Assembly: GCA_905235905.1 (NCBI GenBank)
Contig: CAJONO010000167.1
Location: 1-32,115, forward strand
DNA length: 32,115 nucleotides
Reading direction: 5' to 3'
DNA from: an uncultured Prevotella sp.
GTDB taxonomy: Bacteria; Bacteroidota; Bacteroidia; Bacteroidales; Bacteroidaceae
Part shown: positions 3,990 to 32,008 of the stretch, piece after piece
Layout: each line of letters begins with the position of its first letter
How positions within the stretch are numbered: the first letter of the stretch is position 1
Translations under genes and position numbers: made by a program
The notes under the pieces: model-generated
Database searches by the model: none
Seen by the model: the letters and a program-made list of their open reading frames with translations, nothing else
What the model was told of the DNA's origin: nothing

Positions 3990-6947
<2,958 letters not shown>

Positions 6948-7045: not shown

Positions 7046-7082
7046 TGCCCCGATTTTGTAACTTCTTGATTTACAATGTGTT

Positions 7083-7166
7083 GTAATTTAACCTGAATTA
7101 CAACGCAATTCATGCTGAATTACGCGACAATTCAGGCTTAATTGCGTCGTAATTCAGCATGAATTT
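7083..7166. repeat. Array A: 11-bp phased AATT array
   Basis: AATT starts at 7085, 7096, 7107, 7118, 7129, 7140, 7151, 7162: eight occurrences at exactly 11-bp spacing. Confidence 0.9.
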
Positions 7167-7235
7167 CAGACCTGTTTCCGTCAAGCCCCAAAGTGCATGA
7201 TTATGCAGGTGGAAGGGGTGAAACTACAGTTGGCA

Positions 7236-8696
7236 CTACATGTAGCCCAACCAGCGTAGGATGTCGTTGAGGTTGGCCACGACCATGAGCAGGATAACGA
7301 TGCCGAAGCCCACATATTCGGCGCGAACCATGAACGTGTCAGAGGGCTTGCGACCCGTAATCATCTCGTAGACGAGGAACAGCACGTGGCCGCCATCGAG
7401 GGCGGGTATGGGCAGGATGTTCATGAAGGCGAGGATGATGCTGAGGAAAGCGGTCATGAGCCAGAACATGTGCCAGTCCCATACGGGTGGGAAGAGATTG
7501 CCTATGGTGCCGAAGCCACCGAGCGACTTAGCCCCCTCGGAGGTGAAGACATACTTCAGGTCGCTCACGTAGCCGGAGAGCACGTTCCAGCCATAGGCAA
7601 TGCCGGCGGGGAAGCTCTCGAAGAAGCCGTACTTGATGGTCACGGGCTTGTAGAGATCGGTGAGCATCACGGGCATAATGCCAAGCTTCAGGTCTTCGGT
7701 GAGCACGATTTGCTTGGTAAATGTTCCCATCCGTGATTGTATCGTGGCCATCGGCATGAACGTGCTGTCGGCATTGGCGGTGGCAGCGTCATTGACGAGC
7801 GTGTCGCGCTGCCAGCCGTAGTAGGTTAGCATGACGGTTCTGACCTTCAGGCTGTCGTCGTGGGTTTGTGCAGCCGTCATCTGGTCTTGCAGCCGGCCTA
7901 ATTCGTAGAGGAAGGTGTTGTGCGAGTCGACTTCATGGCCGTTGATGGCCAGAATCTTGTAGCCGCTCTCTAAACCAGCCTGGTCGGCAGGCGAACCGGG
8001 CAGCACACTGTCGATTCTGTTGGGAAGCAGCGGACGCACAAACTGCGGGTCGCTCTTCAGCATGCCCAACAGGTTGAGCTCGCCGGGTAGCGACAGGTGC
8101 TCATGCTGACCGTTGCGCACTATCTCTACGTCGTGGGCTTCAGACAGCTGGCGGTAAAGGTCGGCACCAAACTCGCGAAACAGCTTGCCGTCGGCAGCCA
8201 CCAGAATGTCACCATCGTTGAAGCCCAGCTCCTTGGCCTCATCGTTAAACTTCATGGTCATCTCGCCTACGGGAACGTAGCTTTCGCCCCAGGTAAAGAG
8301 AATCATGGAGTAGATGAACAGGGCGAGCAGGAAATTGACTAGCACACCGCCTATCATGATGAGCAGTCGTTGCCACGATGGCTTCGAGCGGAACTCCCAC
8401 GGCTGTTCGGGCTGTTTCATCTGCTCGGTGTCGAAGCTCTCGTCGATCATGCCGGCAATCTTGCAGTAGCCGCCCAGTGGCAGCCAGCCCACGCCATACT
8501 CTGTGTCGCTGTTCTTGGGCTTGTGGCTCAGCAGCTTGCCGCTCCATTTGCCTATGCCCAGGTCGAAGAACAAATAGAACTTCTCTACTCTTACGCCGAA
8601 GAGCTTGGAGAAGAAGAAGTGGCCACCCTCGTGCAGGAGCACCAGAAGCGAGATGGCGAGAACGAACTGCAATACTTTAATAAGAATAATATCCAT
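7236..8696 (-). CDS. rseP: RIP metalloprotease RseP-like (site-2 protease, M50)
   Basis: HEGGHFFFSKLFGVRVEKF (HExxH), PDZ region PGSPADQAGLESGYKILAINGHEV, C-terminal NILPIPALDGGHVLF. Confidence 0.93.
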   Translation of the reverse strand: MDIILIKVLQFVLAISLLVLLHEGGHFFFSKLFGVRVEKFYLFFDLGIGKWSGKLLSHKPKNSDTEYGVGWLPLGGYCKIAGMIDESFDTEQMKQPEQPWEFRSKPSWQRLLIMIGGVLVNFLLALFIYSMILFTWGESYVPVGEMTMKFNDEAKELGFNDGDILVAADGKLFREFGADLYRQLSEAHDVEIVRNGQHEHLSLPGELNLLGMLKSDPQFVRPLLPNRIDSVLPGSPADQAGLESGYKILAINGHEVDSHNTFLYELGRLQDQMTAAQTHDDSLKVRTVMLTYYGWQRDTLVNDAATANADSTFMPMATIQSRMGTFTKQIVLTEDLKLGIMPVMLTDLYKPVTIKYGFFESFPAGIAYGWNVLSGYVSDLKYVFTSEGAKSLGGFGTIGNLFPPVWDWHMFWLMTAFLSIILAFMNILPIPALDGGHVLFLVYEMITGRKPSDTFMVRAEYVGFGIVILLMVVANLNDILRWLGYM

Positions 8697-9925: not shown

Positions 9926-9991
9926 GTCTTTTTGCAATCTCCTTTTTGTCTTTTTGCAATCTCCTTTTTGTCTTTTTGCAATCTCCTTTTC
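9926..9991. repeat. Three tandem copies of a 22-bp unit in the dxr 5' leader
   Basis: GTCTTTTTGCAATCTCCTTTTT at 9926 and 9948; third copy at 9970 differs only in its last base. Confidence 0.95.
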
Positions 9992-13910: not shown

Positions 13911-14063
13911 GCAATTCGTGCTGAATTGGCTCGTAGTTCATGCTGAATTACAGCGTAATTAATACTGAATTATGGCATAATTAATACTGAATTATGGGGG
14001 CTGAATTATGGGGGTAATTCATACTGGATTGTGAGGCAATCGATGCTGAATTGCGAGGTAAAA
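13911..14063. repeat. Array B: 11-bp phased AATT array upstream of rnhB
   Basis: AATT-like tetramers at 13913, 13924, 13935 (AGTT), 13946, 13957, 13968, 13979, 13990, then 14004, 14016, 14027 (GATT), 14038 (AATC), 14049, 14060 (AAAA). Steps are 11 bp except two (+14, +12). Confidence 0.88.
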
Positions 14064-31665: not shown

Positions 31666-31877
31666 CTCAAAAAATTAATAAGTCGTATCATTTTTCAAAG
31701 TTTTTTTTTGAAAAAAAGTAAAATAGTGCTGTAAGAGGGAATATTTGTTGCCATAAAAACTTCAAGAAAAAGGGTATAATCGGACATGCTCATTGAAAAC
31801 ATTTCGGTATTTTCGGAGGTTTTTGCCAAAAACATTTGCGTAAGTCAAATAATTCAAGTTTCTGTATTTTTTTTTTC

Positions 31878-32008
31878 GACCACGGATTTTACAGATTTTA
31901 CGGTTTTTTTGACCACGGATTTTACAGATTTTACGGATTTTTTTGACCACGGATTTTACAGATTTTACGGATTTTTTTGACTACGGATTTTACAGATTTT
32001 ACGGATTT
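31878..32008. repeat. Four tandem copies of a 33/34-bp unit
   Basis: GACCACGGATTTTACAGATTTTACGGATTTTTTT-type units start at 31878, 31911, 31945 and 31979 (GACTACGG). Internal 9-bp period GATTTTACA/GATTTTACG. Confidence 0.93.

Follow-up and report, generated by a model that had tools for sequence, protein, structure and literature searches.

The phased array of AATT boxes at positions 7085 to 7165 of the window (i.e., the whole stretch of 32,115 nucleotides from an uncultured Prevotella sp. that was analysed here) is, on balance, best read as the central part of a non-autonomous, MITE-like repeat of intergenic regions, of which this locus holds one copy, the core being a putative protein platform. 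Judging from the ends and edges of its copies, the repeat has probably been scattered by transposition through this rumen-type Prevotella genome, and the element that contains array A is here filed under the MITE/BIME kind. The original prediction described the array exactly but overlooked the surrounding element, which has inverted ends and is dispersed over many sites.

Array A is composed of eight AATT boxes that start at 7085, 7096, 7107, 7118, 7129, 7140, 7151 and 7162, a step of exactly 11 bp, as had been reported correctly to the base. Two other early observations also hold: (i) the spacers are of two alternating kinds ("odd", CAxxxTG-like; "even", (A/G)C...(G)(C/T)-like), which generate a 22-bp unit; and (ii) the array occupies a convergent gap, limited by the end of GH2 (plus strand) at 6947 and by that of rseP (minus strand) at 7236. 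The element is wider than the coordinates first assigned to it, since its right inverted end, recognisable though diverged, reaches approximately position 7229, about 6 bp from the rseP stop. In the left terminal part, which is diverged in this copy, no clear inverted end was found. When the arrays of the genome are aligned, they fall into subfamilies and occur in both orientations; array A belongs to the subfamily SF1. The features of the locus, together with a second array, are as follows:

7085..7165, no strand: array A, with eight AATT boxes phased at 11 bp (from the sequence)
7083..7101, no strand: palindromic unit 1, GTAATTTAACCTGAATTAC (from the sequence, by the unit definition)
7105..7123, no strand: palindromic unit 2, GCAATTCATGCTGAATTAC (from the sequence, by the unit definition)
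7127..7145, no strand: palindromic unit 3, ACAATTCAGGCTTAATTGC (from the sequence, by the unit definition)
7149..7167, no strand: palindromic unit 4, GTAATTCAGCATGAATTTC (from the sequence, by the unit definition)
7066..7229, plus strand: copy of the dispersed element, subfamily SF1, matched by the model over 7066-7201 and completed by the right end (SF1 model)
7194..7207, no strand: conserved right-flank palindrome of SF1, TGCATGATTATGCA (from the sequence)
7211..7229, minus strand: right terminal inverted repeat GGAAGGGGTGAAACTACAG, a diverged copy of GGGTGGGAAACTTCAG (from the sequence and the family terminal inverted repeat)
13913..14062, no strand: second array of the array A kind, longer and more decayed (from the sequence)

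The second array lies in a tandem gap, downstream of a SusD-like gene and upstream of a ribonuclease HII-like gene. Its phase slips near 13990-14016, where steps of 14 and 12 bp separate successive AATTs, and it contains GATT/AATC variants. Relatives of rseP come from Prevotella and Prevotellaceae genomes, the best of them from rumen metagenomes (65-69% identity), and no comparable array was found in the rseP neighbourhood of the named relatives at the loci examined.

The core consists of four 19-bp palindromes, GYAATTCAnnnTGAATTRC, at a pitch of 22 bp, which provide eight half-sites 11 bp apart. Each AATT lies within an oriented box, TGAATTRC, and neighbouring boxes alternate in all classifiable cases (193/193, 0 with the same orientation). 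The higher-order repeat of 22 bp that was proposed at the outset stands, but the bare AATT is not the unit: the 22-bp palindromic site is. Conservation is partial in the "odd" spacers, where 188 instances comprise 60 types and CAGCATG, in either orientation, accounts for 60; the "even" ones are hypervariable, with 94 types among 171 instances. The ends of the even spacers were also inspected in the arrays of the genome itself, including 7085-7165, and 88 of 124 have the form A...C or G...T, which means that the facing half-sites pair one ATTAC half with one ATTGC half.

The original prediction would have been contradicted if a genome-wide scan for AATT(N7) had found such arrays at chance frequency or only at two loci. 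Neither is the case: the pattern AATT(N7)x4 has 467 overlapping matches in the genome itself versus 0 for the reversed-pattern control. In the window, there are 13 cases of three in-phase AATTs (allowing at most one mismatch), while shuffled sequences contain 0.02 on average and never more than 1. Over 726 kb of the same genome, 11 bp and its multiples are the only preferred distances between two AATTs (280 pairs at 11 bp, where the background is 17), none of the other four-letter words has such a peak at 11 bp, and 53 chains of at least three boxes are present, mostly with seven or eight boxes. Longer arrays of 11-15 boxes also exist in this genome.

The array is embedded in a larger conserved sequence. 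With a sequence model of SF1, the genome yields 158 matches, approximately 65 of which are near full length; the total includes some palindromic arrays that are counted on both strands. Complete SF1 copies measure 235-242 bp and have outer inverted ends, CTGAAGTTTCCCACCC. Further inside, the conserved flanks are TGAATA..TATTCA on the left and AAGCCCCAAAATGCATGATTATGCA on the right; the array is flanked by 14-bp palindromes, TGAATA(A/T)(A/T)TATTCA on the left and TGCATGATTATGCA on the right, both of which presumably resemble ArgR-type boxes. In a sister subfamily, SF3, 169-182 bp lie between perfect 12-bp inverted repeats, CAATGTTTCACG, and the SF1-like terminal motif then follows outside in several copies. 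As in MITEs, both subfamilies have terminal inverted repeats at their ends, and the element is short, non-coding and present in many dispersed copies on both strands. Direct duplications are found at the edges of three of the seven complete SF1 copies (TCAGTGA twice; AATTCTTAA/AATTCTCAA; TTAAAAG/TTAAAAAG), with unequal lengths, and are absent in several copies; when the right flanks were shuffled among the complete copies, these duplications were matched in 0.15% of the trials (pairing permutation p 0.0015). The inverted ends and the suggestive target duplication are the reasons for calling the element MITE-like. With regard to an autonomous partner, no pair enclosing 0.7-2 kb was found among 37 matches to the terminal inverted repeat in the draft assembly, which is 82% complete.

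Two SF1 copies are rearranged. In the first (L113:567-703; G000 C33), spacers 4-6, which form the array interior, run in the opposite direction to those of other copies, while the flanks keep their orientation; it looks as though the stretch between the CATGCTG/CAGCATG arms had been turned round by recombination. The second (L134:86-151; G000 C118) has lost most of its boxes through an internal deletion and retains the first and the last, which is what recombination between in-phase repeats would produce.

Conservation within the element is markedly uneven. Among 21 SF1 copies, pairwise divergence amounts to 3.5% in the AATTs, 30.1% in the spacers and 25-38% in the flanks; in other words, the letters between boxes diverge approximately nine times as much as AATT itself, as would be expected if a protein gripped the boxes. 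Because the first SF1 copies had been found via AATT, the search was repeated with only the right flank as the query. Among its 24 matches, 22 keep 5-8 of the 8 boxes in phase, and the other two are a contig edge and an internal deletion. Besides, not a single indel was found in 107 columns of 22 copies. Taken together, the low divergence of AATT, the flank-only search and the lack of indels indicate that the phase and the AATTs are kept while all else drifts, and homogenisation between copies may contribute to the conservation of AATT.

It could be argued that the array works as RNA, namely as a bidirectional terminator hairpin or as protection of mRNA 3' ends between convergent genes. Actually, the arrays sit 3' of genes, often convergent ones; the RNA fold of array A is strong (z -7.2 versus dinucleotide shuffles); and a separate intrinsic terminator is rarer at array-adjacent gene ends (9/59 versus 60/220, with unequal search lengths). 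This explanation is nonetheless unlikely and, as the main reading, was rejected on the following grounds: (i) no terminator with a G+C-rich stem and a T-tract was found between 6900 and 7300 on either strand; (ii) covariation is absent in all eight hairpins tested (the long one and seven local ones), where pairing is equal to or below that of shuffles; and (iii) the fold is equally strong when spacers of the same parity are permuted (mean z -0.2) and, hence, is a by-product of the palindromic modules. Against it also speak the closing pair of the even spacers, which is anti-complementary (A..C 41, G..T 47, Watson-Crick 22 versus 55 expected), the ordinary independent terminators that precede the element in several copies, and the drift of the would-be stem neighbours next to conserved AATTs. 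A search of Rfam gave no match.

Given that AATT is nearly frozen relative to spacers and flanks, and that the hairpins lack covariation, selection most likely acts on the recognition of AATT in double-stranded DNA. The pattern of the boxes suggests that AATT is probably recognised by a dimeric protein, through alternating half-sites one helical turn apart. The core would then offer double-stranded DNA to a single kind of sequence-specific protein, with room for up to four of its dimers along the same helical face. The putative binder might be (i) a host DNA-binding protein, in which case the array would act at gene ends; or (ii) a factor used in the spread of the element.

The letters of SF1 and the layout of the array differ in their distribution. 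By BLAST, no SF1 letters were found outside the species in 249 genus genomes; none were found in plasmids, and the two-unit pattern had no match in 293 other genomes of the order. The SF1 model matches 17 of 149 other genus genomes, in the array part only. The same layout with other letters is present in relatives, and the letters agree among copies within a species. For instance, G035 has (GTAAATCAAATTGAATTGCAAA)-like units, four at most loci, with unrelated flanks; G006 has the four-unit layout; and G016 has about five units of the GYAATYTGAnTCAnRTTRC type, as judged by eye. Since the arrays of G035 lack conserved flanks, terminal repeats do not always belong to the architecture.

The reversed control pattern (TTAA) also has matches in some relatives, and those of G049 and G161 are simple 11-bp minisatellites. 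In G049 (e.g., C37:10198-10322, L202-L205), the 11-bp tandem repeat TTAAAGGGGAG yields 248 overlapping matches in many places. In G100 and G185, which belong to another genus of the same family, the matches are TTTAAA(N5) arrays with a variable N5 and 11-bp spacing, which occur in many intergenic places (e.g., L169-L173). These arrays, which may be unrelated to the AATT arrays, share the phase with them but not the palindrome.

With respect to mechanism, the original prediction offered intrinsic curvature or cooperative minor-groove binding. Protein binding to the phased AATT boxes is the better supported of the two, by virtue of the near-frozen AATT and the 193/193 alternation, while curvature as a purpose is weak. 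In its pure form, that proposal would make the array intrinsically curved DNA that places supercoils or isolates genes without any specific protein, which is improbable. In a simple wedge model with assumed parameter values, AATT arrays come out as more curved than expected (mean z about 2.0, with 2.8 for array A), and the 11-bp phase of the boxes fits curvature; phased A-tracts are a known genome-level signal (PMC3940949). But the alternation of box orientation and the conserved letters next to AATT (TG/CA, RC/GY) are superfluous for curvature, and the TTTAAA(N5) arrays of G100 and G185, which may be unrelated, have the same 11-bp phase with no predicted curvature. According to the model, curvature may contribute; it is a poor common denominator if the TTTAAA arrays are related.

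Gene context was derived from 726 kb of stretches of the same genome with a home-made gene caller, and the first 20 stretches were partly picked for arrays. None of 50 arrays overlaps a coding sequence. The proposed mapping against gene ends places the arrays mostly just behind genes, with an enrichment in convergent gaps: where both neighbours are known, 24 arrays are convergent, 14 tandem and 1 divergent, versus 58, 346 and 51 among all junctions. The median distance from array to stop is 82 bp overall; in tandem gaps, the upstream stop is at a median of 90 bp and the downstream start is farther away (median 244 bp). The arrays of relatives are less uniform in this respect (5 convergent, 9 tandem, 4 divergent). 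A like convergent enrichment of the pneumococcal repeats BOX, RUP and SPRITE was read by the authors as tolerance of parasitic insertions (PMC3049150). Similarly, the position of the present element behind gene ends would mainly mirror where insertions are tolerated.

This context has a bearing on another explanation, according to which the element is a neutral minisatellite or a purely parasitic repeat, with 11- or 22-bp units produced by slippage and transposition and no host function. The enrichment in convergent gaps is the pattern of parasitic repeats (PMC3049150), plain 11-bp tandem arrays exist in relatives (TTAACTCCCCT in G049), and the genome itself has the longer arrays of 11-15 boxes mentioned above. 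The explanation has, however, little probability: neutral drift accounts neither for the ninefold lower divergence of AATT relative to the spacers nor for the indel-free phase, and the unit number is four at most of the loci read in G035 and G006. A parasite that needs the boxes for its own spread is possibly part of the best explanation.

The protein-platform reading of array A can be extended to the genus, although only tentatively and with doubt. In such an extension, a fixed multi-dimer platform (usually four 22-bp palindromic units, with their eight half-sites on one helical face) would mark intergenic sites throughout Prevotella, in many copies per genome; the layout would be kept and the letters would change between species, along with a putative DNA-binding protein. 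The whole would constitute a lineage-specific system for chromosome organisation or for the marking of gene ends, which spreads as a mobile-like repeat.

Several known systems are similar in some respects. The BIME/REP elements of enterobacteria are likewise multi-copy, extragenic mosaics of palindromic units, most of them downstream of genes. BIMEs act as platforms to which host proteins (IHF, gyrase) bind; to our knowledge, BIME/REP elements have no phased AATT. REP/REPtron palindromes have a GTAG or CGTC tetranucleotide at their foot (PMC3733652), and membership in the REP/REPtron group was rejected, as this tag is absent from the SF1 consensus. Nor is there a consistent RAYT (Y1_Tnp) gene flanked by the repeats: among four Y1_Tnp-like matches, a single one lies within 1.5 kb of an array, which is on one side of it. 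The Correia elements of Neisseria are MITE-like, with 26-bp inverted repeats and a site for a host protein (IHF); they differ in that they have one site instead of a phased array of eight half-sites. Finally, parC of plasmid R1 has 11-bp iterons bound by ParR, i.e., 11-bp phased boxes for a dimeric DNA-binding protein. The likeness is a functional analogy only, since parC is made up of direct repeats at a single plasmid locus and is not dispersed.

Within the Bacteroidales, the BrickBuilt MITE of Porphyromonas gingivalis is built around a 23-nt direct repeat, present 1 to 22.8 times, and can be as long as 991 bp (PMC4596501). Both elements are intergenic and species-restricted, and both have inverted ends around a tandem-repeat core, predicted stem-loops and no Rfam match. 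The element described here has instead 22-bp palindromic units, usually four, with alternating AATT half-sites, a length of about 237 bp and far more copies. Membership in BrickBuilt was rejected because 23-nt direct repeats with a leader and a tail are absent, the unit is a 22-bp palindrome and the ends differ. The BOX, RUP and SPRITE elements of Streptococcus pneumoniae are short, MITE-like intergenic repeats enriched in convergent gaps; BOX is modular, with internal tandem units, and RUP is densest 50-150 bp from genes (PMC3049150). They differ from the present element in their unrelated sequence and in having no 11-bp phased half-sites.

Prevotella is a dominant genus of the rumen and the gut, and its dispersed repeats have hardly been described, the literature found being mainly on P. 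gingivalis. Drifting letters in combination with a fixed 11-bp phase and AATT boxes are a direct handle on the putative DNA-binding protein. In addition, the species that share this layout but differ in its letters form a natural series, in which one could ask whether protein and site have changed together.

The window contains two other repeats: (i) a 22-bp repeat, GTCTTTTTGCAATCTCCTTTTT, in three perfect copies at 9926-9990, just upstream of the likely start codon of dxr, a minus-strand gene; and (ii) a 34-bp repeat, TTTTTTTGACCACGGATTTTACAGATTTTACGGA, in four tandem copies that are 97% identical, at 31871-32008, at the end of the window.
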